Positions 1 through 17,692 of a DNA stretch of 64,000 nucleotides are shown piece after piece. The translations under genes and the position numbers were made by a program. This stretch comes from Streptomyces sp. NBC_00341 (GTDB taxonomy: Bacteria > Actinomycetota > Actinomycetes > Streptomycetales > Streptomycetaceae): contig NZ_CP108002.1 in assembly GCF_041435055.1 (NCBI RefSeq), forward strand, positions 7,998,001 through 8,062,000, read 5' to 3'. The notes beneath the pieces were generated by a model. That model ran no database searches. It worked only from the letters and a program-made list of their open reading frames with translations, and had not been told where the DNA came from. Position 1 is the first letter of the stretch. Each line of letters starts with the position of its first letter.

Positions 1-2476
1 TGTCCCCGTCGGCCACGAGCGCCAGCCGGGCCGGACCCGCGGAGGACCGCGTACCGGAGTCCAGCGCGGCCAGCACCTCCTGACGGTCCGCCCCGGAGAA
101 GACGTGCAGACGTGGTGCCGTGCCCCGCAGCCACGCCAGGGCGTCCCCCGCGCGCAGCCGTACGCTCACGGCCGGCCCCTCCAGGGGTACGGACACGGCC
201 AGCGCCGTGTGGGCGACGGCCGCGGCGTCCGCGGGCCCGCCGGGACGGGGCACCGCGCGGTGCTGGAGCGAGAGCGCCGCGACCGCGACGGATACCAGCC
301 CGGACGCGGCATGGGCACGCCCGAACACCGACGACGGATCGAACACCGCGTCGGGGCCGTCCCCGATGACCATGTCGGGTTCCCCCGCGGCCCCCTCATC
401 CAGCAGGGCCACGACCGTGTCGCCGTCCCTGCGCGCGGCCTCCAGGGGCTTGAGGACCAGGACGACGGCCGCGTCCCCGGGCTCGTCCTCGCGGCCGAGC
501 TCCCGCAGGGCGGCCCGGTGGACCGCCTCGCAGGACAGGTCGGCGGCACCGACGAGAGCGGCGTCGGCCTCCCCGGAACGGATGGCCCGGACCGCGAGCT
601 CCAGCGCGACCAGACCGGACGCCTCCTCCGCGGACACCGTGAATCCGGGCCCTGCCAGGTCCAGTTGGGTGCTGATGCGGTTCGCCGCGAGGTTCGGCAT
701 GCTGCCCACCACCCCTTCCGCCGTCATCGGGGGAGTGAACGCCTCCCGGGCGGCATCCGCCGACGGACCGGTGGCGGGCGCCCCAGAGCGCTCCAGCCAG
801 AACGGCACCCGCCAGCGGGCACCCGCGCGGGCCACCTGGGGGTCCACCCCGGTTCCGATGACCACCATGGTCCGCTCGCGGGGCAGGCTCACCTTCCGTA
901 CGGCCTCCCGGGCGGCCTCCAGCACCAGGAGCTGATGCGGCACGGCCCGTCCCAGGGCCAGCGGCGGGAAGCACAGGTCCGTCAGCCGCACGGCGATCTC
1001 CGCGACGGGGCCGCGCCGTTCACCACCCAGCACCGCCCGGCGCAGGTCCTCGGTGGACGTGCCCTCGCCGACCCTGGCCCCGATGGCCACGATCGCCACC
1101 TGTGCCGGAGCCGGGGCGGGGGCGGCCGGGCCACCGCGTCGCAGGGCGGACGTGGGAACGGCGTCCGGCGGGTCCACGATCAGGTGGGCGTTGGTGCCGC
1201 CGAACCCGAACGCGCTCACCGCCGCCCGCCGCGGCCCCGTCCACTCCTCCGCGGCGGTCAGCACCCGCAACGGGGTGCCCGCCAGCGCGTCCAGCGGCCG
1301 CTGGGCGCCGAGCGTCGCCGGGCGGACCCCCGCCCGCATCGCCCCGAGCACCTTCAGCAGCCCCGCCACGCCCGCAGCGGCCAGCAGGTGCCCGACGTTC
1401 GACTTGGCCGAACCGATGGGCACGTCGTCCGCCGACCCGAAGACCCGGGCCATGCCGCGCGCCTCCACCGCGTCACCGACCGGTGTCCCCGTCGCGTGGC
1501 ACTCGACGAGCGACACCGACTCCGGCGGTACCCCCGCCACGTCGTACGCCAGCCGCATGGCCCGCACCTGGCCCTCCTGCGACGGGCTGATCAGTCCGGA
1601 ACCACGACCGTCGTTGGACAGCCCCACCCCGCGGATCACGCCGAACACCGGCAGGCCGGCGGCGCGGGCCTCTGACAGCCGCATCAGGGCGACGAACCCG
1701 GCGCCCTCGCCGTGCACCAGCCCGTCCGCGTCCCGGTGGAACGGGCGGCTGCGCCCGGTGCGGCTGGTCGCGGACAGCCCGCAGAACCCCACGTGGAGGT
1801 AGAGCGGATCGGGGCGGCTCACCGCGCCCGCGACCATCAGGTCTGCCGTACCGTCGTGCAGCCGGTCGCACGCCAGCTTGATCGCGTACAACGAGGACGC
1901 GCAGGCGGCGTCGAGCGACCACGCCCCTGCACCGAGGCCGAGCGCGTCGGCCGCGATCCGGGCGGGCAGCCCGGACGAGAAGCGGTTGCGGGCGTCGGGG
2001 CGAGCGCCGGTACCCGCCAGCAGGGCGTCGCGGAGCGGCGGTTGCTGCGCGGACAGCCAGACGTGCTCGGCGAAGGCCGCCCCGGCGGGTGTCGGATACG
2101 ACAGGTTCCCCAGTACCAGGCCGCCGCGCGGCAGCGGGCCGGTGCGGCCCGCCTCCGTGAGCGCCTGCCGCACCCCGTACAGGACCCAGTGGAAGAGCGG
2201 GTCCAGCGACGCGATCTGCTCCGGGGCGATCCGGAAGCCGCTCGGATCGAAGACGGATTCGAACCCGTGGACGTATCCGCCGACGTCGGTCCAGGTGCGG
2301 TCGAGATGGTCGTCCACCGAACCCATGGCCCAGTGGCGCGGCAACCGCCACCGGTCCGCGGGGGCGGCCGACAGGCTCGGACGGCCGGCGGCGATGTTCT
2401 CCCAGAACGTGTCCGGGTCGAGCGCGCCGGGCAGCACGCAGCCCCGGCCTACGACGGCGATGGGTTCGACAGGCAT
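1..2476 (-). CDS. PfaC-like polyketide/fatty-acid synthase, KS-CLF part (3' end beyond window)
   Basis: About 825 codons are visible and the C-terminus is outside the window. The first half is a complete ketosynthase: the active-site loop DAACASSLY puts the nucleophile at about Cys192, with catalytic histidines in ECHATGTPVGD (about His327) and KSNVGHLLAAAG. The second half repeats the thiolase fold, but where the cysteine should be it reads TVSAEEASG, with Glu at about residue 618, so it is a chain-length-factor-like, non-condensing subunit. A KS-CLF didomain is the N-terminal layout of PfaC in polyunsaturated fatty acid synthases, where dehydratase domains follow; those would lie off the window. 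The ATG start begins MPVEPIAVVGRGC, the usual start of a KS domain. It lies 68 bp downstream of the PfaA-like gene in the same operon. The family is secure; PfaC rather than an HglC-type relative is inferred. Confidence 0.88.
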   Translation of the reverse strand, partial: MPVEPIAVVGRGCVLPGALDPDTFWENIAAGRPSLSAAPADRWRLPRHWAMGSVDDHLDRTWTDVGGYVHGFESVFDPSGFRIAPEQIASLDPLFHWVLYGVRQALTEAGRTGPLPRGGLVLGNLSYPTPAGAAFAEHVWLSAQQPPLRDALLAGTGARPDARNRFSSGLPARIAADALGLGAGAWSLDAACASSLYAIKLACDRLHDGTADLMVAGAVSRPDPLYLHVGFCGLSATSRTGRSRPFHRDADGLVHGEGAGFVALMRLSEARAAGLPVFGVIRGVGLSNDGRGSGLISPSQEGQVRAMRLAYDVAGVPPESVSLVECHATGTPVGDAVEARGMARVFGSADDVPIGSAKSNVGHLLAAAGVAGLLKVLGAMRAGVRPATLGAQRPLDALAGTPLRVLTAAEEWTGPRRAAVSAFGFGGTNAHLIVDPPDAVPTSALRRGGPAAPAPAPAQVAIVAIGARVGEGTSTEDLRRAVLGGERRGPVAEIAVRLTDLCFPPLALGRAVPHQLLVLEAAREAVRKVSLPRERTMVVIGTGVDPQVARAGARWRVPFWLERSGAPATGPSADAAREAFTPPMTAEGVVGSMPNLAANRISTQLDLAGPGFTVSAEEASGLVALELAVRAIRSGEADAALVGAADLSCEAVHRAALRELGREDEPGDAAVVLVLKPLEAARRDGDTVVALLDEGAAGEPDMVIGDGPDAVFDPSSVFGRAHAASGLVSVAVAALSLQHRAVPRPGGPADAAAVAHTALAVSVPLEGPAVSVRLRAGDALAWLRGTAPRLHVFSGADRQEVLAALDSGTRSSAGPARLALVADGD

Positions 2477-2544
2477 GCGGGTCTCACTTCACGGCAGGGC
2501 GGAGGCCGGGGCGGGATCAGGAGGGCGGGATCAGGAGGGCGGGG

Positions 2545-5500
2545 TCAGGAGGGGCGGCGGACGAGTTCGACACCGATCAGTTCCAGCCGGACGGACCCGT
2601 CGGCATCGATCAGTGCCGCGTCGCAGCGTGCCCCCGCGTCGTGGACCTTCCGCCCCCGCACCACACACCGCACGGTGCCGTCCACCGGGCCGCGCCGGTA
2701 CACCCTGCACTCGGCGACGGCCATCGGCAGCGTCGCCGAGCCGAGCACCTCCTCGCCCCAGAGCAGGGCGAGTTGCAGCGCGCCGTCCACGGCGGCCGGA
2801 TCGAGCGGCCAGTAGTGCTCACCCGGCCAGTCCAGGGCGCGCAGGCCCGCGGCGGTCGCCTCCGCGCCAAGCTCCGAGACGCCGTGCACCGAGCGCAGTG
2901 CCTGGAAGCGGGGACCGTGGAAGAGGACCTTCCCGTCGTACGACTCGGCCCGCGCGAGCGGCTCCAGGCCGTCCGGGACATCCCAGGCGGCCGCATCGGG
3001 GCTGCCGTCCCCGGTGTCCAGGACCGCCCGGAAGTGCGCCGAGCCGTCCTCGCCCAGCAGCTCCGCCTCCAGCTCCCGGAACGAACCGGGCGTCCGGCCG
3101 CAGACCACGGTGATCCGGTGGCCCGCGCCGCGCAGTTCGGGCAGGGCGTACGTCTTGTAGACCCGCAGATCGCGCAGAACCAGCTGTCCGGCATCCGGCA
3201 GCCAGGCCGTGGCCGCGGCGGCGAACCAGTTCAGGACCATGGCCACGGGCAGCACGGGAACCCCGGCGGGCGCGTGGTCGGCCAGCTGCGGAAGGGTGTC
3301 GGAGCGGAGCAGCACCTGTGCGCGACGCGGATCGGCCGCCGGGGACAGGGCGGCCGGATCGTCCCCGGCGGTCAGCACGACGCGGGCTTCCCCGGCGGCT
3401 CCGGCCAGCTCGGCCGTGAAGGCCGCGGCGCCCTGGTCCAGGGGGATGAGCGGGACCCCGGACCGGTCGAAGTGCGCGGCCAGCGCCGGGGAGACCATGC
3501 CGCCCTGCCAGGGGCCCCAGGCCACGCACCGCACCAGACAGCCGGGGCGGCGGGACTGTTCGGCCGACGCGACCTGGTGGAGCACCTCATTGGCCATCGC
3601 GTAGTCGCCCTGGCCCGGATTGCCGAACACGGCGGCCACGGAGGAGAAGAGGCAGATCGTGTCCAGGGGGTCGTCCGCCGTCGCTGCCAGGAGCGCCCGC
3701 AGACCGTCCACCTTGGTGGACATCACCCGCTCTGCCTGATCGTCGGTCTTGTCGGCGATCAGGCTGTCGGCCAGCACCCCCGCGCCGTGCACGATGCCGG
3801 TGACCGGCCCCCACGTCTCGCGTACGTCGCACAGGGCGGCGGCGAGGGCGGCACCGTCGCGGGCGTCCACCCGGACGTACCGGACGGGCGATCCCGCGGC
3901 CTCCAGCCCCGCCACCGTCGCCCGCACCTCGCGCGCGGCCAGGATCTCCCGGGCCCGCTCCGCGATCCGGGCGGGCGACGTGTCCGCCGCGTCCGGGCCG
4001 GAGCGTTCCGCGAGCAGCCGGGTGAGGGCCGGTTCGTCGGTCGCGGAGGCCAGCCCGGCGGGCTCGGCGGCCTGCTCGGTCCTGCCGAGCAGCACGATCC
4101 GCGGACGGTGGGCCCTGGCCAGGTCGAGCAGCGCCGCGGCGGTCACCCCCCGGGCCCCTCCGGTGGCCACGATCACCGAATCGGAGGAGATCCGCGGCGC
4201 GCCGCCGGGCGTCACCCGCTCGGGTACCAGCCGCAGGAGGGTGCGGGTGCCGTCCGCGCGCAGGCCCACCTCCGGGTCGGTTCCGCCTTCGAGCAGTTCC
4301 CGCACGATCGCGGCGGCGACCTCCTCGTCGCCCCGGCCGCCGCGCCGGCAGTCGATGACCCTGACCGAGGCGTCCGGCCACTCCTTCGCCGCGGTCCTGG
4401 CCAGACCGGCGACCCCGCCCAGCCACGCACGGCCGGGTTCGCCACCCCCGAGCCCGAAGTCGCCCCCGGTGTCCTGGACGGTCACGAACAACCCGCCGCC
4501 CCCGGCCGTTCCTGCCGCGGAGACCGCACGCGCCGCGCGCAGCGCCGAGCGGTGGACCTCCCGGGCCCCGTCCGGCGTGGCGTCCGAGGTGAGCGCGCCG
4601 AGATGGATGACCGCTCGCGCGTCCGCGGGCACCTCCGTCTCGGCGGTGGCGTCCACGCCGTGTTCCGCCAGCTTCCGCGCGACGACTGCGGCCGTCGCGG
4701 ACCCGGCCGTCCCGCCGCCGGTCACCACGACGGGCCCGTCGAGCAGGCCCGCCGTGGCCAGCCCGGACGGCGGCGACTCCACGGCGCGCGGGACCAGCCT
4801 GGTCAGCGGCGTCCGCTCGTCGGATCCGGTGCGCGGGGCGGGCGGCGCGGATGTCGCGGCGGTGCCGGCGACTTCGGTGCTTCCAGCGGATCCGGGAGGT
4901 TCGACGGCCTCCGGCGCGGTGGTCCCGGGAGACGGGGCGCCGTCGGTGAGCGCGTCCACGATCTCGCGCAGCGTACGGAGCTTGCCGAGCCGGCCGATGT
5001 CGCCCGCTCCGACGTCGCGCACCTCTCGGCGCATGACAGAGAGGATCTCGACGCGCTTGATCGAGTCGACGCCCAGATCTGCCTCCAGCTCCATGTCCAT
5101 GTTGAGCATGGCGGCGGGATAGCCGGTGAGCCGGGCCACCACGGAGAGCAGCAACTCCTCCAGCTCCGAGGGCGACAGGGACATCGCGCCATCGGCGGGG
5201 TCGGGGTCGGGGCCGGGAGCCTGGACAGGGACGGCTGCCGGTGCGGACGCGGGCGGGGGCACCGCTGCCGGCACAGCGCTCACGGCCGGAGCCGAGGGAG
5301 CCGGGGGAGCTGACGGAGCCACCGGTGCGGGTGCGGGTCGTGGCGAGGAGGAGCGGGGGAGCGGCAGTGGCGGCGCGGGGACGGACACGTCCAGGCCTCC
5401 GCCGGCGTACCCGTCCGGAGCCCCGGCTGCGGGCACTTCCGTGGCCCCGCCCGGGTGCGTTCCCCCGAGCATGGCGGCCAGGGTCGTCTCGGTCATCCGC

Positions 5501-8500
5501 AGGAAGGCGATGTGGCTGTCCGTCAGCATGCGCTGGCAGGCCGCGTGGGCCTGCGCCGTCTGCCGCTGGACACTCTCGACGGCGGCGTACCAGCTGCCGT
5601 CGGGGGCGGCCTCGGCCCCGGGCGCCGGTTCGAGCTCCGGCTGCCACGGCGCGGAAGCCGTCCCGTACTCAGAAGGCTGCGGGGGGTGGACCGGGGAGGG
5701 GACGTACGCGGGCATGGGGACCGCCGGGGTGTCGGACGCGGATACGGATACGGGGGCGGGCCGGGACCGGTGCTCCGGCTCGGGCTCCGGCTCGTACTCC
5801 GGAGCGGGCGGCGGTTCGGCGGACGCGGCGCGAGGTGGCGGGAACTGACCGCAGTTGGCTCCGCTGATCTTCACGGTCATTCGGGGTTCGTGCTCCTTCG
5901 CTGGGCCCTCGTGGGCGTACGACGCCCAGAGAGTGTCGAGATCGAGGGCGACGCCGCGTACGGCGAGTTCCCCGAGCGCGGCGTGCAGGGTGTCGGCGCC
6001 GGGCCGGGCCGGCCGGTCCAGGGGGACGGCCGCGTGCTCGCGGTCACCGAGGATCTGTCCGACCAGACCGGTAAGCGCCGCGCCCGCGCCGACCTCGACG
6101 AAGGTCCGTACCCCGGCCGCGTACATGGCCTCGATCTGGTCCTGGAAGAGCACCGGCGAGGAGACATGGCGGGCGATCCGGCTGCGTACCTCCTCGGGCG
6201 ACGACGGGTACGGCGCCGCGTCCGCGTTGCCGTAGACCTCGGTCCGGGGCCCGGTGAGAGGCACCGTGCGCAGGTACTCGGCGAGCGGCTCGACTACCGG
6301 CCGGACCAACGGACTGTGGAACGCGGTCGACGCCGCCAGCCGGCGGGTGCCGGTCCCGTCGGCCGAGAACGCCTTCTCGGCCCGCGCGATCGCCTCGGAA
6401 GAGCCGGAAAGCACCACCTGGCGCGGCGAGTTGTGGTTGGCCGGCCAGATGTCGCCGAACCCGCCGCCGGCCAGTACCTGAGCCACGTGCGCGCGGTCCG
6501 CCGCCACCGCCAGCATCCCGCCAGGGGCGAGCGCCGCCTCTCGCATCAGCTCACCGCGGCGGCGGGCCAGATCCACCAGCGAGCCGGCGTCCAGAACTCC
6601 CGCGCAGTGCAGCGCCACCAGCTCTCCGAAGCTGTGGCCCGCTACGCAGTCCGGCCGAAGACCCAGCTCGCGCACCACCGCCAGCAGCGCGAGAGCGTGC
6701 ACCGCCAACGCGGGCTGCGCCCACTCGGTGGCGTCCAGCAGGTCCCGCCGGGCGGCCCGCTCCCCGTCGGTGAAGGCGGGCGGCGGGAACACCACCCGGT
6801 GCAGAGGACGTCCGTCGAAGCGGGCGCCGCCGAGCCGGTCCCACACGGCCTGGGCGGTCGGCGCCAGCATCGCGAGACCGTCGCCCATCCCGACGTACTG
6901 GGACCCCTGTCCCGGGAACAGGAAGCCGATGCGGCCGGGTTCGGCGTCCCCGGACGCGTACCGGACACCGGCGGGCGTCGAGAACGCGTCACCGGGGCGC
7001 CGCCGGATCAGGGCGAGGGCCTGCGCGTGCTTCTCCCGCAAGTCGTCGGCATCGGTGGCGACGACGGCCAGCCGCATCCGGGCGGCCGACGAGAAGGAGC
7101 TGTGGCTCTCCCGTGCCAGTGCGGCCAGCGGACGGCCGTCGTCGGCCCTCGGTGCCACGAGGCCGGCCGGGGAATCGCCGCTGAACAGGACGAGCTCGCT
7201 CGGGGCGGAGCGGTGGCGCAGAGCCGTACGGCCCCCGGCGCCTCCGGGCGCGTACTCCTCGAGCGTGACGTGGAAGTTGCTGCCGCCGAAACCGAAGCTC
7301 GACACCGACGCCCGGCGTGGATGCCCGGCGGGCCGCACCCACGGGCGGGTCTCGGTGTTGACGTAGAACGGGCCGTCCGCGGCGGCTGCCGCCGGGTTCG
7401 GCCGGTCGACCTTCACGGTCGGCGGCAGCACCTTGTGGTGCAGAGCCATGACGGCCTTCAGCAGCCCCGCCGCGCCCGCCGCGCACTTGGTGTGGCCGAT
7501 CTGCGACTTGACCGAGCCGATGGCGCACCACTGGCCGTCCGTACGGCCCGTCGCGCCGAACACCTCGTTGAGCGCGGTCAGTTCGGCGGTGTCCCCGGCC
7601 TTCGTGCCGGTCCCGTGCGCCTCCACCAGCTCCACGGTCTCCGGCCCGTAACCCGCCTCCTCGTAGGCGCGGCGCAGGGCCCGCGCCTGGCCGTCGGGGA
7701 GCGGGGCGTAGATCGCCGTGCTCCTGCCGTCGGACGATGTGCCGATGCCCCGGATCACGGCGTGGATCCGGTCGCCGTCCCGCTCCGCGTCGGCCAGCCG
7801 CTTCAAGGCGTACATGACCACCGCTTCGCCCAGCATGGTGCCGTCGGCCGAGGCCGAGAACGGCCGGCAGTCGCCGCTGGGAGACAGGGCGGGCGTCTTG
7901 GAGAAGCACAGGAACATGCCGATGTCGTTCCCGGTGTCCACGCCTCCGCTGATCACCAGATCGGCCCGGCCGAGGGACAGTTCACCGACCGAGGTCGACA
8001 GGGCCGCCAGCGAGCTGGCGCAGGCGGCGTCGGTGGTGTGGTTGATGCCGTGCAGGTCGAACCGGTTGGCGATCCGGCCCGCGACCACGTTGCCGAGCAG
8101 TCCGGGGAAGGTCGATTCCCGCCACGGCGCGAAGCTGGCCGAGATGCGGTCGCACACGGCCTGTGCCTCGGTCTCACCGAGTCCGCTCTCCCGCAGCGCC
8201 GCGAGCCACACCGGGCGCTGGGCGCGCCCGTACATGTGCGGGAGCAGTTCCAGGGCGGCGGCGCCGAGGACCACACCGGTCCGGTCCCGGTCGACCCCGG
8301 CAGGACCGCCCGCGTCCTTCAGTACCTGGTCGGCGACCATCAGGGCGAGCAGCTGGGAGGTGTCGGTCGTCGGCAGGCTGGTGGGCGGCACCCCGTACGC
8401 CATTGGGTCGAAGTCGACCTCCGGCAGGAAGGCGCCCCGACGGGCGTACGTCTTGTCGGGGGCGGCCGGGTCCGGGTCGTAGTGGTCCGCCACGCTCCAG

Positions 8501-8640
8501 CGCGAAGCGGGCACCTCGGTCATCAGATCGTGGCCGCCGGTCACGATCCGCCAGTAGCCGGCCGCGTCCGTCGCGCCGGGCACCAGGGCTCCTACGCCGA
8601 CCACGGCGACGGGGACCTGGCGGTGGGGTGGGCCGGGCAC
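2545..8640 (-). CDS. PfaA-like multidomain synthase KS-AT-ACP-KR-DH
   Basis: A 2031-residue iterative type I synthase of the PUFA/secondary-lipid class. Domain order: KS about 8-460 (Cys207 in DAACASSLAAL, His342 in EAHGTGTKAGD, and KSQIGHTKCAAG); AT about 570-880 (FPGQGSQYVGMG, nucleophile Ser670 in GHSFGEL); a Pro/Glu-rich linker; one ACP (phosphopantetheine site Ser1193 in LGVDSIKRVE); KR about 1485-1790 (ATGGARGV, then FSSVAAVFGNPGQGDYA with the catalytic Ser and Tyr); and a C-terminal dehydratase-like hotdog region to the end. Marine PfaA proteins usually carry five or more tandem ACPs, so a single ACP is notable. The start is GTG with a strong GGAGGAG ribosome site 5 bp upstream; codons further upstream overlap the previous gene out of frame and are rejected. 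It is co-directional with its neighbours with 56-68 bp gaps, so one operon is likely. The product is unknown. Confidence 0.93.
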   Translation of the reverse strand: MPGPPHRQVPVAVVGVGALVPGATDAAGYWRIVTGGHDLMTEVPASRWSVADHYDPDPAAPDKTYARRGAFLPEVDFDPMAYGVPPTSLPTTDTSQLLALMVADQVLKDAGGPAGVDRDRTGVVLGAAALELLPHMYGRAQRPVWLAALRESGLGETEAQAVCDRISASFAPWRESTFPGLLGNVVAGRIANRFDLHGINHTTDAACASSLAALSTSVGELSLGRADLVISGGVDTGNDIGMFLCFSKTPALSPSGDCRPFSASADGTMLGEAVVMYALKRLADAERDGDRIHAVIRGIGTSSDGRSTAIYAPLPDGQARALRRAYEEAGYGPETVELVEAHGTGTKAGDTAELTALNEVFGATGRTDGQWCAIGSVKSQIGHTKCAAGAAGLLKAVMALHHKVLPPTVKVDRPNPAAAAADGPFYVNTETRPWVRPAGHPRRASVSSFGFGGSNFHVTLEEYAPGGAGGRTALRHRSAPSELVLFSGDSPAGLVAPRADDGRPLAALARESHSSFSSAARMRLAVVATDADDLREKHAQALALIRRRPGDAFSTPAGVRYASGDAEPGRIGFLFPGQGSQYVGMGDGLAMLAPTAQAVWDRLGGARFDGRPLHRVVFPPPAFTDGERAARRDLLDATEWAQPALAVHALALLAVVRELGLRPDCVAGHSFGELVALHCAGVLDAGSLVDLARRRGELMREAALAPGGMLAVAADRAHVAQVLAGGGFGDIWPANHNSPRQVVLSGSSEAIARAEKAFSADGTGTRRLAASTAFHSPLVRPVVEPLAEYLRTVPLTGPRTEVYGNADAAPYPSSPEEVRSRIARHVSSPVLFQDQIEAMYAAGVRTFVEVGAGAALTGLVGQILGDREHAAVPLDRPARPGADTLHAALGELAVRGVALDLDTLWASYAHEGPAKEHEPRMTVKISGANCGQFPPPRAASAEPPPAPEYEPEPEPEHRSRPAPVSVSASDTPAVPMPAYVPSPVHPPQPSEYGTASAPWQPELEPAPGAEAAPDGSWYAAVESVQRQTAQAHAACQRMLTDSHIAFLRMTETTLAAMLGGTHPGGATEVPAAGAPDGYAGGGLDVSVPAPPLPLPRSSSPRPAPAPVAPSAPPAPSAPAVSAVPAAVPPPASAPAAVPVQAPGPDPDPADGAMSLSPSELEELLLSVVARLTGYPAAMLNMDMELEADLGVDSIKRVEILSVMRREVRDVGAGDIGRLGKLRTLREIVDALTDGAPSPGTTAPEAVEPPGSAGSTEVAGTAATSAPPAPRTGSDERTPLTRLVPRAVESPPSGLATAGLLDGPVVVTGGGTAGSATAAVVARKLAEHGVDATAETEVPADARAVIHLGALTSDATPDGAREVHRSALRAARAVSAAGTAGGGGLFVTVQDTGGDFGLGGGEPGRAWLGGVAGLARTAAKEWPDASVRVIDCRRGGRGDEEVAAAIVRELLEGGTDPEVGLRADGTRTLLRLVPERVTPGGAPRISSDSVIVATGGARGVTAAALLDLARAHRPRIVLLGRTEQAAEPAGLASATDEPALTRLLAERSGPDAADTSPARIAERAREILAAREVRATVAGLEAAGSPVRYVRVDARDGAALAAALCDVRETWGPVTGIVHGAGVLADSLIADKTDDQAERVMSTKVDGLRALLAATADDPLDTICLFSSVAAVFGNPGQGDYAMANEVLHQVASAEQSRRPGCLVRCVAWGPWQGGMVSPALAAHFDRSGVPLIPLDQGAAAFTAELAGAAGEARVVLTAGDDPAALSPAADPRRAQVLLRSDTLPQLADHAPAGVPVLPVAMVLNWFAAAATAWLPDAGQLVLRDLRVYKTYALPELRGAGHRITVVCGRTPGSFRELEAELLGEDGSAHFRAVLDTGDGSPDAAAWDVPDGLEPLARAESYDGKVLFHGPRFQALRSVHGVSELGAEATAAGLRALDWPGEHYWPLDPAAVDGALQLALLWGEEVLGSATLPMAVAECRVYRRGPVDGTVRCVVRGRKVHDAGARCDAALIDADGSVRLELIGVELVRRPS

Positions 8641-8696
8641 GGTCTCTCCTCCGGATCGGGCTGTCGTTGCTGACGCCGGGGCGGCGCCGGTCCCGC

Positions 8697-10304
8697 TCAC
8701 GCCAGCTCGCGAGGCGGGAAGCTGAACGCCTCGGCCGTCAAGGGGACGCCGTAGGTGCGCAGTTGATGGGCGCGCGTGACGACCGCGGCCCCTTCGAGCA
8801 GGTTGAGCGCGATCTGCACCACGGACCGGTTCGCCGGCGCGGCCAGGAACGTGCCCGCCACCCACTGGTTGAACGCGCCCATCGCCGGACCGCACCAGAT
8901 CTGGTAGTCGGCCCGCCGCGATCCCTCGCCGGTGATCGCCCACTGGCTGGAGCTCCCCAGGTACCAGCGGAAGACCAGGGCCATCCGGTGCTTCGGATCC
9001 GTCTCCGCACGGGTGATCTCCGCAGGATCGCGCCGGGCCCAGAACGCGCGGGTGCGCTGCCAGATCTCGTCGAACGGGGCGCGCAGCACGTCCCGTTCGA
9101 TCGAGGCCCGCAGCGCGGCCGGGATCTCCTCCAGCGAACCGTGGGCCCGGTACGCGGAATGGAGCCGTCCGGCCCGCTGGGCGAACATCGTTCCCCGGGA
9201 GAGCACTTGCAGCTTCACGCCCAGTTCGAACATGTCGGCCGCCGGTGCCATGGTCACATCGGAGATGTCCGCGTCGCAGAGCATCGCCTTGGCCTCGTCG
9301 GACAGGCCCGCCTCTGTCGCCGTCTGGTTCACGGAGCCGATGACGACGTAGGACGCGCCGAGGGCGAAGGCGGCGGCCACCGCGTCCGGTGTGCCGAGGC
9401 CGCCGGCCGCGCCGATCCGGACCGGCCGGGGGTAACCGAACCGGCGGCACAGGGTGTCGCGCAGGGCCGCGATCCTCGGCAGCAGGGCCTGGAGCGGCCG
9501 GTTGTCGGTGTGCCCGCCGCTGTCCGCCTCCACGGTGATGTCCTCGGCCACCGGCACCAGAGCGGCCAGCTCGGCCTCCTGCCGGGTCAGCTTTCCCCGC
9601 GCGACGAGCTGGTCCAGCAGCACGGGCGGAGCGGGGGAGAGGAACCTCTCGGCCACCTCGGGCCGGGAGACCTTGGCGAGCAGGCGGGCGCGCCGGACGA
9701 TGGCGCCATCCGGGTCCCGGCGCAGCCCGTGCGCGGAGCACAGCACGACGGCCGGGGTCAGCTCCATGAACGCCGAGGCGGAGATCCGGGGGACCCCGGC
9801 GCTCACCAGCAACTCGGCTACACGGAACTCCAGTTCCGGTTCGGCCGGTGAGTGGATGAGGTTGACACCCCAGTTGCCGCGGGTGTCCAGCTCCCGCGCG
9901 AGGGCGTGCACGGCCCGTTCCACATCGGGATAGGCCAGCCCCCCTGCCCCGAAGAAGCCGAGCATCTCCGCCCGTGCCATGGCCGAGACCATCCGGGTGG
10001 TCGCGATGCCGTTCGCCATCTCCCCCGCGACATAGGGGAAGCGGACACCGTGCGCCTCGCAGAAGGTGCGGCCGCCGAGCCACTCGGGGTACAGCGGCGG
10101 CAGCGTGCCGAGCACCGGGCCGTCGGGTACCGGGCCGGTCGCGATCCCCAGCTCACGGCCGTCCGGCGCACTGACGACGTGGACGGGTCTCCGGATCTGC
10201 CGGGCACGGGCGGTGATCTCCGCGGGCGAGAAGACGGGCGCGAAGACGGGCGAGGGGACCGGCGGGGACGCGGCGGGGGCGCCGGGAACGGTGAGGACGG
10301 ACAC
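8697..10304 (-). CDS. PfaD-like FMN-dependent trans-acting enoyl reductase
   Basis: A 535-residue protein of the PfaD family (nitronate-monooxygenase-like TIM barrel with FMN). In PUFA synthases and trans-AT polyketide systems this enzyme reduces the enoyl-ACP double bond in trans. The central barrel shows GAAGGLGTPDAVAAAF and SYVVIGSVNQTATEAGLS, followed by the family's C-terminal region with KLQVLSRGTMFAQRAGRLH and LGSSSQWA. Its presence explains why the adjacent PfaA-like protein shows no enoyl reductase domain. The start is GTG with GGAG 7 bp upstream, 54 bp after the reductase gene and 56 bp before the megasynthase gene. Length is typical for the family. Function is secure at family level; the substrate is the ACP-bound intermediate of the adjacent synthase by inference. 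Confidence 0.93.
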   Translation of the reverse strand: MSVLTVPGAPAASPPVPSPVFAPVFSPAEITARARQIRRPVHVVSAPDGRELGIATGPVPDGPVLGTLPPLYPEWLGGRTFCEAHGVRFPYVAGEMANGIATTRMVSAMARAEMLGFFGAGGLAYPDVERAVHALARELDTRGNWGVNLIHSPAEPELEFRVAELLVSAGVPRISASAFMELTPAVVLCSAHGLRRDPDGAIVRRARLLAKVSRPEVAERFLSPAPPVLLDQLVARGKLTRQEAELAALVPVAEDITVEADSGGHTDNRPLQALLPRIAALRDTLCRRFGYPRPVRIGAAGGLGTPDAVAAAFALGASYVVIGSVNQTATEAGLSDEAKAMLCDADISDVTMAPAADMFELGVKLQVLSRGTMFAQRAGRLHSAYRAHGSLEEIPAALRASIERDVLRAPFDEIWQRTRAFWARRDPAEITRAETDPKHRMALVFRWYLGSSSQWAITGEGSRRADYQIWCGPAMGAFNQWVAGTFLAAPANRSVVQIALNLLEGAAVVTRAHQLRTYGVPLTAEAFSFPPRELA

Positions 10305-10358
10305 GCAAGGGCTCCAACGGGAGAGGACGTGAGCTGGTCAGGCGTAAGGGTCTGCTGG

Positions 10359-11501
10359 TCAGGCGTGCGGAAGGACGTCCGGGGAAGCGCCCGGCGCCGG
10401 GGCGAGGGGCCGGCCCCTCTGGGCGAGACCGGACCAGAGGTAGTCCAGGCCCACCGGGGCGGAGGCCGCCGACGGCCCCAGCCGGGTCCTGACCCGGGTG
10501 TCGTCGAACCGCCGCCGGTGGGCGAGGTAGGCCGTCATTCCCGGATAGAACTCCAGCAGGGCCTCCAGGGCCGACGGGGTGTCCGGCTTGGCGGCGACCA
10601 GTTCGATCGAGAGCGGGACCAGCCGCTCCAGCAGGGTCACGACCGTGGGCACGGGCACATCGCGGTCGTGGACGACGTGGTACGTGTCGACGCCGCCCGA
10701 GGGCGTCAGCCCGGCCAGCCGCACCATGACCTCGGCCGCGTGCTCCACCTGCAGCAGATTCAGCCGCCCTTGCGGCTGCCCCACTGTCCGGATGAGCGGG
10801 CGGCCGGCCGGGCCGCCGGGCTCTCCGGGACCGGCGCTGCACCGCGCGTCCCGCAGGATCCGTTCGATGACCTGCAGCGGGTGCGAGGGCAGTTCGGGGT
10901 GCGGCGGCAGATCCGTGACGAGGATGCTCGGCCGCAGGACCAGGGCCGGGCGGCCGTGCTTCCGCGACCACGCGTGCACCAGCAGCTCCGCTTCGTACTT
11001 GGACCGCTCGTAGGCGTTCTCGAAGCCGCAGGAGTCGTCCAGCTCGTCCTCGTACGCCACTCCGTCCCGCCGCGCCCCGGCGACGAACGCGGTGCTCACG
11101 TGACGGATCAGGGGTGCCCGGCGGCCCGCGGCCGCCAGCTCCAGCACGTGCCGGGTCCCCTCGACGTTGATCCGGCGCAGCTCGGGCAGGTCCCCCTCCA
11201 GGTTGATGCTGCCCGCGCTGTGCCAGATCGTGCCCAGACCGTCGGCCAGCTTCTGGAACGCCCGTCCGGACAGTCCCAGCCGGGGCTGTGCCAGATCGGT
11301 CTCCACCACTCGCAGCCGGCCGGGGAGCTCGGCGGTGAACGCCTCCGGCGAGCCGGTCAGTTCGAAGAACCGGGTGATGCGGCGCAGCGCGTCGGCCGAC
11401 CCCGCGTGGGCCAGAACCGTCACGGAGTGGTGCGTGCCGAGCAGGCGGCGTAACAGGCGCAGTCCGAGAAATCCGGTGGCGCCGGTGAGGGCGACGTGCA
11501 C
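10359..11501 (-). CDS. Thioester-reductase-like extended SDR (PF07993 type)
   Basis: A 380-residue NAD(P)-dependent reductase. The N-terminal Rossmann motif GATGFLG, the VSTAFVAG segment and the YxxSK-type catalytic site (AYERSKYEAE) place it with stand-alone thioester reductase/fatty-acyl reductase domains of the male-sterility family. Such enzymes release carrier-bound acyl chains reductively as aldehydes or alcohols; HetM of heterocyst glycolipid synthesis is a known example next to a PUFA-like synthase. No carrier domain is fused. The chosen start is GTG (VHVALTGATG) because TTGGAG lies 8 bp upstream, nearly identical to the ribosome site of the next gene; longer readings add a low-complexity Arg/Pro leader. 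It is the first gene of the leftward operon, so it probably defines how the product leaves the synthase. Confidence 0.86.
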   Translation of the reverse strand: MHVALTGATGFLGLRLLRRLLGTHHSVTVLAHAGSADALRRITRFFELTGSPEAFTAELPGRLRVVETDLAQPRLGLSGRAFQKLADGLGTIWHSAGSINLEGDLPELRRINVEGTRHVLELAAAGRRAPLIRHVSTAFVAGARRDGVAYEDELDDSCGFENAYERSKYEAELLVHAWSRKHGRPALVLRPSILVTDLPPHPELPSHPLQVIERILRDARCSAGPGEPGGPAGRPLIRTVGQPQGRLNLLQVEHAAEVMVRLAGLTPSGGVDTYHVVHDRDVPVPTVVTLLERLVPLSIELVAAKPDTPSALEALLEFYPGMTAYLAHRRRFDDTRVRTRLGPSAASAPVGLDYLWSGLAQRGRPLAPAPGASPDVLPHA

Positions 11502-12358
11502 GGGTGTGGCTCCAAGGGCGGTGAGAGGGCGGTCCCGGGACCGGGTGCGGGGTGCCGCCGTTGCGGCGACCGGGTGCGTGCGGAGTGGGATGCCACCGGC
11601 CGCCCTGCGGGGCGGAGTGCCACTGGCGGTCGCGTCGCGCGGTGCTGTTCGGTGCTCGCGGGTGCCTCCGGTGCCCCCGTCCGGCAGGGGTTCCCCGGGC
11701 CTGCCCCAGGCCGGTGACCTCCGGCGCACGGCACACAATGTCAGACGGCGGGCGGGCCGAGAGCCCCGATTCCCCCTGCTCACCCGAACGAAGTACGCCG
11801 CACCGCGAACCGTGCGGGCCGCACGCCCGGGAGGACTTCACCCCTGGCCGGGCCGCCCCGGTGAACGCGACGGCGGGACACGGGCGGAGCCGCACGGGCG
11901 CCGTCCTCCTTTCGGGGGAACCTGCCGGTGGGGGGCCTCGACCGGCCGGGGGACTCGGACGAGGCAGCCGGGGTCCGCCGCGTCGTCGGCGGGTGCCGGT
12001 GGCGCGGGGCGGCAGGCCAATCACGGCACGGGAACACGGGCCGTGGACGGCTGCGCGGCGGATGCGGCCGACCGCACCGGGATCCGCCCGAACCGGGTTG
12101 CCGAGGCCGGTTCGGAACACGGGTGCCGGGCGGACCGGCTCCGACCGGTGGCCATTCTGTTGTCCGGCCGGTCCGGGCCTGCGTTGCGCTGCGGCCGACC
12201 GGGGCGGACGGCCCGGCGTCGGTGGCCTCCTGCCGTACGCCCGTTCGCGCTACCCGTTTTTCGCGCACTGTCTCACCTGCCGCGGGTGCTGTCGCCCAAC
12301 TGCGGCCCCGCGGTCGCCCTGCCATGGCCTTCGGCCAGAATCGGAGCCCCGAATCCCC
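11502..12358. other. 857-bp divergent intergenic region
   Basis: This lies between the leftward synthase operon and the rightward acyltransferase gene and should contain both promoters. It is extremely G+C rich, apart from a slightly less rich patch (cgtttttcgcgc) about 100 bp before the acyltransferase. I saw no convincing -10/-35 pair, operator palindrome or small gene. Open frames crossing it have poor codon use and no homology I recognise. Confidence 0.5.
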
Positions 12359-13726
12359 ATGCCTGATCTTGAACAGTCCGCAGAGCCTACTGAGTCCGTT
12401 CAGCCCGAGCCGCCCGCGTCCTGCGAGCGCTCCGCTCCGTCCGTTCCCTCGCCCCGCCACCCCACGCACTCGGTCGACCGAGCGTTTCTCAGCATGGAGC
12501 GGCGGCGGCCCGATGTCCGCTGGGACGCCGGCGGTGTCGCGTACCTCAGCGGTCCGCCCCCGGCTCTGTCGGACCTGCGCGCGTACGTGGGCTTCCGCCT
12601 CGGCGGGCTGCCCCTGCACACGAGCCGGGTCGAGGGCGGACGGCGGCCCCGGTGGCAGCCCGACACGGAGTTCGACATCGAACAGCATGTCCACGAGGTG
12701 GTCGCCGACGGCCCCGCCGCCTGGGACTCCGCCCTGCACACCGCACTCAACGCCCCGTTCGCACCCGGGGTTCTGTGGGGGGTCTGGCTGGTCCACGGGC
12801 ACGAACCCGACGCGTACGCCGTCTGCTATCGCTTCCGTCACGCCTGCCAGGACGGTTCGGCCGCCGCCATGACCTTCCGCGCCATGCTGGGCGAGGGGGA
12901 GCCGTCGGCGCGCCCGGTGCCGGGCCGGAGCCGTCGGGCCGGGGTGCCCCGGCGGGTCGGCGCGGCCGTCGGGCTGGCCACGAAGTTCGTGGCGGGCACC
13001 CTCGCGGTTCGGGGGCACCGCCCGGATGCCGTCTTCACCCCCTCGGGGGAGCGGCGGCTGTGGCGCGGGCGGGTACCGGCGGACACCCTGCGCCGGATCG
13101 GCGCCGCACGCGGCGGCTCCGCCCATGACGTGCATCTGGCCGCACTCGCCGGGGCGTTGGCCGTCTGGTCGGCCCGCTCCGGCGTACCGCTCCCTCGGGT
13201 GACGGCCGTGCTGCCCATCGACGCGCGCCGTCCCGACGAGGACCAGACGTGGGGGAACCGCTGCTTCGCCGTGCCGCTGGAGCTGCCGGTGCGGACCGGC
13301 TCCGAGGACCCGGACGGGACCGGCGCCGGTCCCGCCGCACTGCGGCGACTGGACCATGTCATGGCGACGACCCGGAAGTTGCGGGGCGAGGCGTGGCGGC
13401 AGGCCATCCAGGACCTGGTCCGCTTCATGCCGGGCCGCCCCACCGAGTGGTATCTGCGACGGATCCTCTCCCCGCGCGTCACCAACGTCATGGCCACCTC
13501 CATGCCGCTCGCCGAGAAGGGGAGCCTGGGCGAGACGCAGGTGACGGGCACCGCCCTGTTGCCCCTGGTCGTGCCCGGACACCTCTTCGGGGTGGGGCTC
13601 TCCTTCTTCGGCGACTGGGCCGAGGTGTCGTTCGTGGCCGATGGCGCCCTTCCGCTCGGGGAGGCGCTGCCGGAGCTGTGGGAGCGGGCGGTGGGCGAGC
13701 TGGAGGAGAACACGGCGCCGGTCTGA
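12359..13726 (+). CDS. Wax ester synthase/diacylglycerol acyltransferase (WS/DGAT)-like protein
   Basis: A 455-residue acyltransferase of the WS/DGAT superfamily, which transfers acyl chains from a CoA (or carrier) thioester to fatty alcohols or diacylglycerol at the membrane or lipid-droplet surface. The start of the fold (VDRAFLSME, equivalent to LDAxFLxME), NAPFAPGVLWGVWLV, the C-terminal GNRCFAVPLEL and TNVMATSMPL are family hallmarks. The catalytic HHxxxDG motif reads RHACQDG: the second His, Asp and Gly are kept but the first His is Arg. The ATG start leaves about 45 Pro/Ser-rich residues before the domain; GGAG is 13 bp upstream, a little far. It is divergent from the lipid-synthase operon, which suggests that it esterifies that product. 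Activity is uncertain because of the altered motif. Confidence 0.82.
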   Translation: MPDLEQSAEPTESVQPEPPASCERSAPSVPSPRHPTHSVDRAFLSMERRRPDVRWDAGGVAYLSGPPPALSDLRAYVGFRLGGLPLHTSRVEGGRRPRWQPDTEFDIEQHVHEVVADGPAAWDSALHTALNAPFAPGVLWGVWLVHGHEPDAYAVCYRFRHACQDGSAAAMTFRAMLGEGEPSARPVPGRSRRAGVPRRVGAAVGLATKFVAGTLAVRGHRPDAVFTPSGERRLWRGRVPADTLRRIGAARGGSAHDVHLAALAGALAVWSARSGVPLPRVTAVLPIDARRPDEDQTWGNRCFAVPLELPVRTGSEDPDGTGAGPAALRRLDHVMATTRKLRGEAWRQAIQDLVRFMPGRPTEWYLRRILSPRVTNVMATSMPLAEKGSLGETQVTGTALLPLVVPGHLFGVGLSFFGDWAEVSFVADGALPLGEALPELWERAVGELEENTAPV

Positions 13727-13766: not shown

Positions 13767-15155
13767 TCACGGGACCTCTGCTGCCGGACCGGGACGGGCG
13801 GCGGCCACCGCCGGCAGGGGCGGGACGGCGCCGCGTGCCCGGCGCCGGCCCGCCCGGAGCTCCCGGCGAAGGGCCCGCTGGTAGGAGCGGATGTCGATCT
13901 CGATTCCGTGGCGGTAGCTGGGCGCGTAGGCGCGTTCATGGGACCGCCGCTCGCGGCCGATCGCCCGCGTCATGTCCTGCGGCGACGGCAGGGCGACCGT
14001 TCCCGTGATCAGACCGGCGACCCATTCCGCCTGCGGTTCGAGCAACGGGAAGGCCGCGCCGGCGGGTTGGGCGAGCCCCATGAAGTAGAGGCCCGGGAGC
14101 CTCGGCGGCACGGTACGCAGATAGAGCTCTGTGCGGCCGTCCCGGGCCGCGAAGACGGCGGGGTCCAGGAAGGGGAAGGAGAGGGAGTATCCGGTGGCGT
14201 ACACCACGGCGTCCACGGGTTCGCGGCTGCCGTCGGTGAAGTCCGCCGTGTTCCGGCCGAAGGAGCTGACGCCGGGCTTGGGCGTCACCGCGCCACGGGC
14301 CAGCTGGACGAGCAGCTCGTCCGAGGTGGACGGGTGGGCGGCGAGGGGCCCGCGGACCGGTTCGGCCAGCCCGTACTGAGCCGGGCCGCCTCGGGTCAGC
14401 CGCAGGAGGAGCGCCATCGCCGGGCCCTTGAGGAATCCTGGGATACGGGACAGCGGGCTCCGCACCAGGTGGTCCGCCGGCCGGCCGAGCAGCATCTTGG
14501 GGAACACGTGCGTCGCCTCGCGTGCGGAGAGGAAGGTCCGGGCCGCCGTTCGCGAGATCTCCGCCGCGATCTCGCAGGCCGAGTTGCCCATGCCGATCAC
14601 CAGGACCCGCCGGCCGGTGTACGCCTCGGGGGAACGGTAGTCGTGCGAGTGGAGGGCGGATCCCCCGAACTCCTCGGCCCCCGGCACGGCGGGGCCGGGC
14701 AGGCGCGGGTCCCAGTGGTGCCCGTTGGCCACCACCACTTCGGTGTACCGCCGCGTCGTCACCTCCGCCGCCGTGTCCCCGCGGCACCGTCGGCCGACCT
14801 CCCAGCCGCCGTCGTCCAGGGGCCGCACCGAGGTGACCTCCGTGCCGAACGTGATGTGACGGTGCAGGGCGAACGTCGCGGCGTAGTCCTCCAGGTAGGC
14901 GAGGACCTTGCTGTGGTGCGGGAAGACCGGGTAGGCCTTTGGCATCGGCAGCGAGGAGAACGACATGCTCTCCTTCGAGATGTTCGCGTGCAGCGACGCG
15001 TACACCCCCGACATGCCGTTGTCGTTGCCGTACCGCCAGAGCCCGCCGATGCCCGAACCCGCCTCGAAGCAGTCGAACGGAACACCGCGCGAGGCGAGGA
15101 CCTTGCTCGCGGCCAGGCCGGACGGACCCGCTCCGATCACACACGTTCTCCGCAT
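13767..15155 (-). CDS. Flavin-containing monooxygenase
   Basis: A 462-residue class B flavoprotein monooxygenase. The FAD site is GAGPSGLAAS at the N-terminus. The FMO fingerprint FxGxxxHSxxY appears as FGGSALHSHDY near residue 160, and the second Rossmann motif for NADPH is GMGNSACEIA. The enzymes use NADPH and O2 to oxygenate nitrogen, sulfur or ketone groups, or to hydroxylate. ATG is chosen because GAAGGGG lies about 9 bp upstream and the FAD motif follows directly. It is convergent with the WS/DGAT-like gene (40 bp between ends) and divergent from the ABC transporter. Its placement between a lipid synthase and an exporter suggests a tailoring role, which is inference. Confidence 0.9.
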   Translation of the reverse strand: MRRTCVIGAGPSGLAASKVLASRGVPFDCFEAGSGIGGLWRYGNDNGMSGVYASLHANISKESMSFSSLPMPKAYPVFPHHSKVLAYLEDYAATFALHRHITFGTEVTSVRPLDDGGWEVGRRCRGDTAAEVTTRRYTEVVVANGHHWDPRLPGPAVPGAEEFGGSALHSHDYRSPEAYTGRRVLVIGMGNSACEIAAEISRTAARTFLSAREATHVFPKMLLGRPADHLVRSPLSRIPGFLKGPAMALLLRLTRGGPAQYGLAEPVRGPLAAHPSTSDELLVQLARGAVTPKPGVSSFGRNTADFTDGSREPVDAVVYATGYSLSFPFLDPAVFAARDGRTELYLRTVPPRLPGLYFMGLAQPAGAAFPLLEPQAEWVAGLITGTVALPSPQDMTRAIGRERRSHERAYAPSYRHGIEIDIRSYQRALRRELRAGRRRARGAVPPLPAVAAARPGPAAEVP

Positions 15156-15458: not shown

Positions 15459-16073
15459 ATGGACGTCACAGATGTGCACCACTCCTACCGCCAGCGCGAA
15501 GTCCTCCGGGGCGTCGACCTCCGGCTACGGCCGGGCACCCTCGCCGGCATCGTCGGGGAGAACGGCTCGGGCAAGACCACTCTGCTGAAGATCGTCTCCG
15601 GTGAGCTCAGGCCGGACCGGGGTTCGGTGCGCCACCGGGGCAGGTTCGGCTACTGCCCGCAGTCCGTGGTCCTGGACGACTCCTTCACCGTCCGCCAGCA
15701 CCTCGACTTCTTCAGGAGCGCGTTCGGGCTTGCGGACCTGCGGCTGGCCGAGGAGGTGATGGAGGTCCTGGCCTTCACGGAGTACCTCGACCAGCGTGCG
15801 GGCCTGCTCAGCGGGGGCTCCCGGCAGAAGCTGAACCTGACCCTCGCGCTCATGCACGATCCGGACGTCCTGCTGCTGGACGAGCCCTACCAGGGTTTCG
15901 ACTGGGAGACGTATCTGCGCTTCTGGGAACTGGCGACCAGGCTGCGCGACGCCGGGCGCTCGGTGCTGGTCGTCTCCCACCTGGCGTACGACATCGACCG
16001 GCTCGACGTGCTCTGGCGCCTGGAGAACGGCCGCCTGCACTGCCAGGAACCCCGTGCGGAGGCGGCGGCATGA
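15459..16073 (+). CDS. ABC transporter ATP-binding protein
   Basis: A 204-residue nucleotide-binding subunit, short for the family but complete. Walker A is GENGSGKTTLLK (residues about 31-42), the signature is LSGGSRQKLN, Walker B is DVLLLDEP, and a switch histidine is seen in VVSHLAYD. The ATG start has GGAG 7 bp upstream. It overlaps the permease gene by 4 bp, so the two are translationally coupled and form one ABC-2-type exporter. It lies beside the lipid-synthase locus and is a candidate exporter of its product; this is inferred from location only. Confidence 0.93.
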   Translation: MDVTDVHHSYRQREVLRGVDLRLRPGTLAGIVGENGSGKTTLLKIVSGELRPDRGSVRHRGRFGYCPQSVVLDDSFTVRQHLDFFRSAFGLADLRLAEEVMEVLAFTEYLDQRAGLLSGGSRQKLNLTLALMHDPDVLLLDEPYQGFDWETYLRFWELATRLRDAGRSVLVVSHLAYDIDRLDVLWRLENGRLHCQEPRAEAAA

Positions 16074-17128: not shown

Positions 17129-17692
17129 ATGACTCTTTCGCGTACCGTCCGGCGCAGCGTCCTGACCGCGGCTCTGCTGTCCGTCTCCGCGCTGACCGTC
17201 TCCTCCAGCGCCGTGGCCGAGCCCGCCGCCCGCGCCGCCGCCCCGGCCGCCGCACAGGCGGCGCCGCTGCCGCCCGCGTGCCAGGAGGCGCTGCTCGAAA
17301 CCCTGGACAAGTTCCCTGTCGTGGACTTCACCGTCCCCGACAAGGCAAAGAACGCCCTGCTGGCTGAAGTGCTGGGGCTGAGCGAGGCCGATCAGGCGGC
17401 CTTCACCGAGGCGGGTTGCGCGGCCTGGAACACCTGGGCGACCGACAACGGCCAGGCGGTCGCCACGGACCTGGACACCCGCTACCGGAACGCCGCCGCG
17501 CCCGCCTGCAACAAGTTCGCCAAGGCCTCGATCGGGTCGCTCAAGAAGTTCGCCCCGAACGTACCCGCCGCGACCCGTGACCTGGAGGCGCTGGCCAAGA
17601 AGGTCTGGAAGAGCGCCATGGAGAAGCTCGCCGCGGACGCCACCAACGCCGACTGCCGCGCGGCCTACAACGGGGTGAAGGCCGGCTGGTAG
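17129..17692 (+). CDS. Small secreted four-cysteine protein of unknown function
   Basis: A 187-residue protein with a clear Sec signal peptide: a basic N-terminus, a hydrophobic core (AALLSVSALTVSSSAVA) and a likely cleavage after AVA or a little later. The mature part is Ala-rich and helical, with four cysteines (PACQE, AGCAAW, APACNK, NADCRA) that could form two disulfides after export. It starts at ATG with AAGGAG nine bases upstream. A strong terminator follows. I do not recognise a named domain; similar small exported proteins are common in Streptomyces. Confidence 0.85.
   Translation: MTLSRTVRRSVLTAALLSVSALTVSSSAVAEPAARAAAPAAAQAAPLPPACQEALLETLDKFPVVDFTVPDKAKNALLAEVLGLSEADQAAFTEAGCAAWNTWATDNGQAVATDLDTRYRNAAAPACNKFAKASIGSLKKFAPNVPAATRDLEALAKKVWKSAMEKLAADATNADCRAAYNGVKAGW

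Follow-up and report, generated by a model that had tools for sequence, protein, structure and literature searches.

A Streptomyces PUFA-Type Synthase Operon Inherited with a Thioester Reductase and a Divergent WS/DGAT-Family Acyltransferase: A Possible Pathway to a Wax-Type Ester

Overview of the Locus

The window analyzed here is a stretch of 64,000 nucleotides from Streptomyces sp. NBC_00341 (C1:7998001-8062000 of a 9.06-Mb genome), the left part of which encodes a polyunsaturated fatty acid (PUFA)-type (Pfa) synthase, a stand-alone thioester reductase (TR), and a divergently transcribed acyltransferase of the wax ester synthase/diacylglycerol acyltransferase (WS/DGAT) superfamily, here called WSD. 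The genes for TR, PfaD, PfaA, PfaBC, and WSD are one inherited five-gene unit that is more than a chance assembly, because the arrangement is conserved across a clade. Based on the predicted proteins, the unit may constitute a dedicated secondary-lipid pathway yielding a neutral ester of the wax type, a reading to which we assign a probability of roughly 0.48. A preliminary description of this DNA had placed leftward genes for a thioester reductase, PfaD, PfaA, and a PfaC-type KS-CLF protein next to a divergent acyltransferase gene; that observation is confirmed, and the interpretation attached to it is partly supported. The features of the core unit are as follows.

1..2476, minus strand: 5' part of the pfaBC-like gene, with ketosynthase (KS), chain length factor (CLF), PfaB-type acyltransferase (AT), and two FabA-type dehydratase (DH) regions
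2545..8700, minus strand: pfaA-like gene, KS-AT-single acyl carrier protein (ACP)-ketoreductase (KR)-DH; TIGR02813, 1151 bits
8697..10304, minus strand: pfaD-like enoyl reductase (ER); TIGR02814, 670 bits
10359..11501, minus strand: stand-alone TR with NAD_binding_4, first gene of the presumed operon
11502..12358, no strand: divergent intergenic region between TR and WSD, 857 bp, with three conserved blocks
12359..13726, plus strand: WSD, divergent WS/DGAT-family acyltransferase, 455 aa, with an xHxCQDG motif

The GTG start of pfaA overlaps the stop of pfaD. Only positions 1-2476 of the pfaBC gene are inside the window; the remainder was read from DNA further left, giving a full protein of 2169 aa whose gene extends to -4033 (L010:967-7476). 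The unit spans -4033 on the left to 17692 on the right, such that the five genes of the preliminary description stand and its boundaries do not. The acyltransferase start also required correction. The gene starts at 12359; the long open frame from 11552 was rejected by the codon model as a high-GC shadow frame, and long antisense open reading frames at the locus were dismissed on the same grounds.

Co-Inheritance of Synthase, Reductase, and Acyltransferase

The distribution of the unit was first read from 246 genomes drawn evenly from the genus, including that of the window. Kinship makes these genomes non-independent, and hence no P value is attached to co-occurrence. At E <= 1e-60, relatives of PfaD are present in 63 genomes, of TR in 16, and of WSD in 11. 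The 11 genomes with WSD are exactly those in which PfaD is at least 72% identical to that of the window. TR adjoins PfaD in 11/11, and WSD adjoins TR in nine; in the other two (G147 and G178), WSD is on a separate contig, at its edge. The next tier of PfaD relatives, at 64-67% identity, comprises seven places in six genomes, with TR in two (G164 and G250) and no WSD at the same threshold. A TR relative without PfaD occurs in three genomes (G067, G183, G244). Altogether, 17 of the 63 PfaD-bearing genomes reach at least 64% identity, and the weaker matches may belong to other polyketide clusters. In a class-level sample of 296 genomes, PfaD was detected at E <= 1e-150 in 17, with none above 66% identity outside the genus.

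A wider scan retained 80 PfaD loci from 357 relatives, some of them in genomes that overlap with the genus sample. TR (>40% identity) is found in 42 of these loci, immediately before PfaD except in L083, and WSD (>40% identity) in 25. Setting aside 13 loci in which the sequence upstream of PfaD is shorter than 3.8 kb, 67 are scoreable; of these, TR occurs in 37, WSD in 24, and an orthologous WSD without TR in none. The 81-row PfaD tree contains a Streptomycetaceae clade of 42 rows (support 98/94) that carries TR in 38, the remaining four being cut off. Of the 35 rows of a subclade within it (98/90), eight are cut off; the other 27, counting the window, are assessable, and all but L036 have WSD next to TR (26 of 27). 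A WSD ortholog (75-86% identity) was recovered in seven of eight further genomes of this subclade, namely those of L036, where it lies at a contig start, and of seven cut-off rows, with L017 as the miss. The ortholog is thus present in 33 of the 34 genomes examined, a count that leaves out L015. The preliminary description had named absence of the acyltransferase from beside the synthase in relatives as telling against it; the gene is conserved there in the rows above, and in Actinophytocola a distant WS/DGAT lies between TR and PfaD.

A seven-locus sister clade (L039-L044, L047) keeps TR and the synthase and has no orthologous WSD. The best WSD matches in these genomes are 35% (E 1.6e-58), 37%, 33%, and 30% identical, and three of the seven give no match at E <= 1e-12. 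When the tree was rerun without 12 cut-off rows (69 rows), the WSD label required 2 changes versus a shuffled mean of 21, and the TR label 5 versus 22.5. Most simply, WSD was gained once and displaced once, and TR has the longer history. TR also lies next to more distant PfaD genes (L073, L085, and two Frankiaceae loci, L074 and L075), as well as occurring in L083. Two other accounts of the association were rejected or found no support: co-inheritance with PfaD and TR excludes WSD as a chance neighbor, and the best matches in a plasmid collection (61% identity for PfaD, 30% for WSD) lend nothing to a plasmid-borne origin.

The Pfa Synthase and Probable Reductive Release

PfaD and PfaA both score above the cut-offs of their models, 449 bits for TIGR02814 and 1010 bits for TIGR02813, the omega-3 PfaA model. 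PfaA has the domain order KS-AT-ACP-KR-DH with a single ACP (one LGxDS motif) and a DH carrying HxxxGxxxxP. PfaBC is a fused protein of order KS-CLF-AT-DH-DH, in which FabA is matched at 285 bits over three stretches, a PfaB-family stretch (860-1183) reaches 70 bits (under the 144-bit cut-off), and the CLF is called as the second KS stretch lacking the KS cysteine motif. Motifs located the KS cysteines (in PfaA and in the leading KS of PfaBC), the serines of the ACP and of the PfaA AT, and the PfaA DH His; the GYSSG of the PfaBC AT and the HFxxDPxxPG in both DH regions of PfaBC were seen on reading the sequence. With KS, AT, ACP, KR, CLF, DH, and ER encoded together, the set is, as judged from its domains, a PUFA-type synthase.

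Does this synthase simply make eicosapentaenoic acid (EPA)-type PUFAs for membrane lipids? The passing score of PfaA against the omega-3 model and the listing of S. coelicolor sco0124-0129 as eicosapentaenoic acid, in the material compared, favor such a role, which we nevertheless regard as very improbable, as reductive release would not yield a free acid or CoA ester and the domain order is unlike both Type A and Type L. Type A (EPA synthase) genes have separate pfaB and pfaC and 4-6 ACPs, as opposed to the fused PfaBC and one ACP seen here. The S. coelicolor EPA cluster is Type L, with a PfaBC of order KS-CLF-DH2-AT (Shulse and Allen, PMC3098273, in the portion compared), as against KS-CLF-AT-DH2 in the window. 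The related S. coelicolor cluster invoked in the preliminary description does carry the EPA-type label, but it compares with the window's unit only loosely. In the text compared, Type L (S. coelicolor) and Type M (Frankia, S. avermitilis) resemble the present unit in being actinobacterial Pfa sets without a known product (PMC3098273).

TR matches Pfam NAD_binding_4 over its cut-off (E 3.4e-44) and contains GxxGxxG and YxxSK, with the TG and YExSK residues invariant in 43 aligned sequences. Its top PDB sequence match is MxaA (E 8.6e-20). The domain match together with the GxxGxxG and YxxxK motifs identifies TR as a predicted thioester reductase, and the release of the chain as an aldehyde or alcohol, proposed in the preliminary description, is probable on these grounds.

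Two described systems bear on this step. The heterocyst glycolipid (hgl) cluster, Type F of Shulse and Allen, likewise combines a PUFA-like synthase with a thioester reductase domain, located in HglB, and has a dedicated ATP-binding cassette (ABC) exporter, devBCA (PMC8064123, in the portion compared), which agrees with the pairing named in the preliminary description. It differs in that HglB fuses ACP and reductase, the cluster contains a glycosyltransferase, no WS/DGAT is named in the text compared, and the PfaC DH domains are lacking (PMC3098273, in part). The authors of the HglB study describe the enzymatic activity of this protein as unexplored (PMC8064123, same portion). The zeamine genes zmn10-14 of Serratia plymuthica encode homologs of PfaA, PfaC, and PfaD plus a stand-alone thioester reductase, Zmn14 (412 aa), but add an aminotransferase domain, a KR, and a nonribosomal peptide synthetase/polyketide synthase half, with no WS/DGAT in the text compared (PMC3547906). 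Judging by the Zmn14 and HglB precedents, the chain made by a PUFA-type synthase that is paired with a TR is expected to be released as an aldehyde or alcohol. A 2026 survey of hybrid clusters (PMC13291983) reports, in the text compared, stand-alone TRs in the zeamine and fabclavine clusters and describes another clade of Streptomyces; it nowhere uses the term wax ester. Among the matches listed from the open-licence PMC literature (subscription papers lie outside this scope), no paper joins a PUFA-type synthase with a WS/DGAT. A TR beside a PUFA-type synthase has precedents in these systems, and the added WS/DGAT may be the new part.

The WSD Acyltransferase

WSD matches PF03007 along a partial stretch (30.4 bits over a cut-off of 23.6). 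A profile of 31 sequences (the window's, 27 close, and three distant homologs) matches two solved WS/DGATs in two stretches, 7nxg (E 2.6e-23) and 6chj (E 7.9e-20). By these matches WSD is a predicted, divergent member of the WS/DGAT superfamily; the family named in the preliminary description holds. Among the 7996 best candidates scored, 108 are WSD homologs, of which the 105 closest (P0008-P0112) are 55-99% identical, those named by NCBI being all from Streptomyces, and the remaining three are 29-35% identical. The motif region is spanned by 102 of the 105 close homologs, the other three being fragments, and H-x-x-Q-D-G is kept in 102/102. The second His and the DG of HHxxxDG are consequently retained throughout, as in bacterial WS/DGATs, from which the WSD family differs in that the first His and the N of the ND motif are not conserved and in being tied to a synthase operon. 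One further PF03007 gene is present in the genome, ~91 kb away.

Proposed Pathway and Its Alternatives

It is proposed that PfaA, PfaBC, and PfaD would assemble a long chain, perhaps unsaturated in part, while it is carried by the one ACP of PfaA. Next, TR would use NAD(P)H to release this chain, yielding a fatty aldehyde or, after a second reduction, a fatty alcohol. WSD would then join the alcohol to an acyl group, taken from an acyl-CoA or a carrier protein, to give a neutral ester of the wax type. Finally, the ABC transporter and secreted protein described below, where present, would carry the product outward, and a flavin monooxygenase (FMO) may serve as an optional decoration step. These steps do not carry equal weight. 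Esterification of the released alcohol by WSD is fairly probable, a long-chain acyl partner, i.e., a wax ester, is a possibility that we hold tentatively, and export of the product is a somewhat fainter one. That WSD was gained and kept argues for action on the TR product, as do its confinement to loci with TR (0/67 without) and the order TR-WS/DGAT-PfaD in L083.

Several findings weigh against this pathway. The WSD family departs from the canonical HHxxxDG and ND motifs of wax ester synthase/DGAT enzymes. Both His residues of HHxxxDG are generally needed in WS/DGATs. Among the 102 homologs, the first His is kept in 56; its place is otherwise taken by R (28), E (7), Q (6), D (3), or L (2), with 95 of the homologs scored by pattern and seven by eye. 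Likewise, the N of ND is replaced by H in 88/98 matched homologs and kept in 10/98. A 2015 paper, in the part compared, calls the HHxxxDG motif critical. WSD scores 103 bits against TIGR02946, the NCBIfam WS/DGAT model, under the 310-bit cut-off, and as a lone sequence it matches 7nxg weakly (E 9.7e-4). The motif changes and the sub-cut-off score speak against a plain wax synthase, and TR too falls below the cut-off of its model (TIGR01746 thioester reductase, 131 versus 213 bits). Furthermore, the sister clade implies that the core makes something without WSD, the ABC pair is missing from at least six of 25 WSD loci, and L059 has a WS/DGAT without TR. Of the wax-ester pathway drawn in the preliminary description, the enzyme superfamily is retained, and the wax ester itself stays conditional.

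These departures raise the alternative that WSD caps the TR alcohol with an acyl group that is short or otherwise special, or moves the Pfa chain to a different acceptor such as a sugar, amine, or polyol, giving an ester or amide other than a wax. In addition to the altered HHxxxDG and ND motifs, the absence of any homolog above 35% identity outside the WSD clade among the scored candidates suggests a changed substrate, and the presence of an optional FMO and an ABC transporter suggests that the product is decorated and secreted. On the other hand, the unit shows no additional recurrent head-group gene (eleven neighborhoods, with families grouped by BLAST and not each annotated), and we consider this alternative rather unlikely.

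A bolder form of the wax-ester pathway has the synthase make both halves of the wax. PapA5 of Mycobacterium belongs to the same acyltransferase superfamily as WSD and works in dimycocerosate ester formation with Mas, a synthase that is not PUFA-type and whose alcohol partner, phthiocerol, is made elsewhere. PapA5 takes the chain held by this iterative type I enzyme and esterifies it to a long alcohol (PMC5064953, in the portion compared). By analogy, TR would free the alcohol and WSD would take a second chain off the PfaA carrier, the ester being exported to coat the surface; such a scheme appears improbable.

Predicted Release Genes Around the Pfa Core

Other Pfa loci vary in the genes beside PfaD. 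In Actinophytocola gossypii (L083:7474-11407), TR, a canonical WS/DGAT (HHALLDG), and PfaD overlap, which is the same set of genes in an arrangement of its own; this WS/DGAT is the nearest WSD relative in another Pfa locus, at 30% identity. L043 of the sister clade has a WS/DGAT (HHTQMDG, predicted 297 aa) upstream of TR. In Pseudonocardia and Amycolatopsis (L084:6444-9983 and L081:6441-9989), an amine-oxidase-like flavoprotein-ACP-thioesterase protein, its domains read in L084 only, lies beside PfaD and adjoins a member of a family read as an AMP-binding enzyme in L048, giving a further kind of release module for the Pfa core.

In Amycolatopsis coloradensis (L059:5168-9906), a glycerol-3-phosphate acyltransferase (GPAT), a HAD/acyltransferase fusion, and a canonical WS/DGAT (HHSSMDG) stand immediately upstream of PfaD. 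This group looks like a triacylglycerol set devoted to the Pfa synthase, judging by its predicted enzymes, and it favors the idea that WSD could itself be a diacylglycerol acyltransferase storing Pfa-derived fatty acids as triacylglycerol, with TR on a side path. The role is plausible in L059 and less so in the window, where no GPAT or lysophosphatidic acid acyltransferase was found beside the unit. The L059 enzyme is only 27% identical to WSD, and its locus lacks the TR that accompanies every orthologous WSD in the scoreable loci; we consider triacylglycerol storage by the window's unit quite improbable. The release variants seen on the Pfa core (TR; TR with WS/DGAT; an AMP-binding enzyme; GPAT with acyltransferase and WS/DGAT) suggest that release and head-group genes may be exchanged around PfaD-PfaA-PfaBC.

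Borders and Accessory Genes

Beyond WSD, the following genes belong to the unit in part of its range.

13767..15155, minus strand: class B FMO, optional member; FMO-like E 8.9e-85, FxGxxxHxxxY type
15459..16073, plus strand: small ABC ATPase, frequent member; PF00005, 95 bits
16070..16945, plus strand: ABC-2-type membrane protein, frequent member; weak PF12698 match (E 0.0018, below cut-off)
17129..17692, plus strand: 187-aa apparently secreted protein, frequent member; no Pfam or NCBIfam match

The borders come from a comparison of eleven neighborhoods, that of the window and those of ten other genomes (two lacking WSD). Shared genes on the WSD side stop at the 187-aa protein, and to the right of PfaBC no gene recurs at the same place within ~5-10 kb. 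Among 25 related WSD loci, the ABC ATPase and permease are each found in 18 at >=80% identity, the 187-aa protein in 17, and the FMO in 11 (12/26 with the window), in one case shortened (L011); some of the loci are cut off. L045, L046, and L052 have WSD without the ABC pair, the secreted protein, or the FMO. The 187-aa protein is apparently secreted, to judge from its signal-peptide-like N terminus, and four cysteines are invariant in its 17 sequences. Baeyer-Villiger monooxygenases carry the motif FxGxxxHxxxW(P/D); the FMO has FGGSALHSHDY, of the form FxGxxxHxxxY, and so does not have the Baeyer-Villiger form. A gene for a GvpL/GvpF gas vesicle protein lies at 21068-21823, right of the cluster.

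The divergent gap between TR and WSD contains conserved blocks at 11718-11748, 11779-11796, and 11902-11919 (12 sequences), the best 18-base stretches being 0.88-0.94 identical versus a mean of 0.50. The first two blocks keep a 49-bp step in L021, L031, L034, and L036, with 1-5 mismatches each, and since L036 keeps them without an adjacent WSD, they are assigned to TR. At the corresponding place in L045, L046, L052, and the sister clade these two blocks were not found, and the blocks gave no match to a known regulator. A hidden gene in the 857 bp is unlikely, as conservation in the alignment is confined to short blocks separated by gapped stretches that are not conserved.

To the left of the unit, at -15208 to -4257 (L009:4792-15743), lie genes for an old yellow enzyme-type reductase, a ferredoxin-type NAD(P)H reductase, an AurF-type N-oxygenase, a Zn alcohol dehydrogenase, an aldehyde dehydrogenase, and a 4-HFC-P (furan) synthase. 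The last is present in 63 of the 246 genus genomes (three matches weak, about E 1e-7) and has the aldehyde dehydrogenase as its neighbor in 19 of the 20 loci read. Adjacency to the Pfa unit in the window genome raises the idea that the two sets work together toward a furan- or N-oxygenated lipid; PfaC, the 4-HFC-P synthase, and the aldehyde dehydrogenase are adjacent in the nearest relative (L107) too, and the 4-HFC-P synthase is more frequent in genomes that carry this Pfa type (8/11) than in the others (55/235) and occurs in 20 of 31 Pfa genomes of a further sample. Kinship may, however, explain the enrichment, and the 4-HFC-P synthase adjoins PfaC in only one of 20 loci from other genomes (1.5 kb flanks) and is absent right of PfaC in 10/10 other neighborhoods. 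The enrichment led us to raise this alternative marginally, to a level still highly improbable, and to lower our estimate for the wax-type ester pathway from 0.50 to 0.48. The left set was rejected as a constant part of the unit, its adjacency being confined, among the genomes read, to the window genome and L107.

Implications

The S. coelicolor cluster is still labelled eicosapentaenoic acid though this product has not been demonstrated (PMC3098273, in the text compared). The unit described here offers a specific alternative to this label, a reduced and esterified long-chain lipid, and with PfaD-family genes present in 63 of the 246 genus genomes, the question may concern many Streptomyces. 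If the wax were indeed made entirely by the unit and exported by the ABC pair and the secreted protein, it would be a Streptomyces counterpart of the heterocyst lipid envelope.

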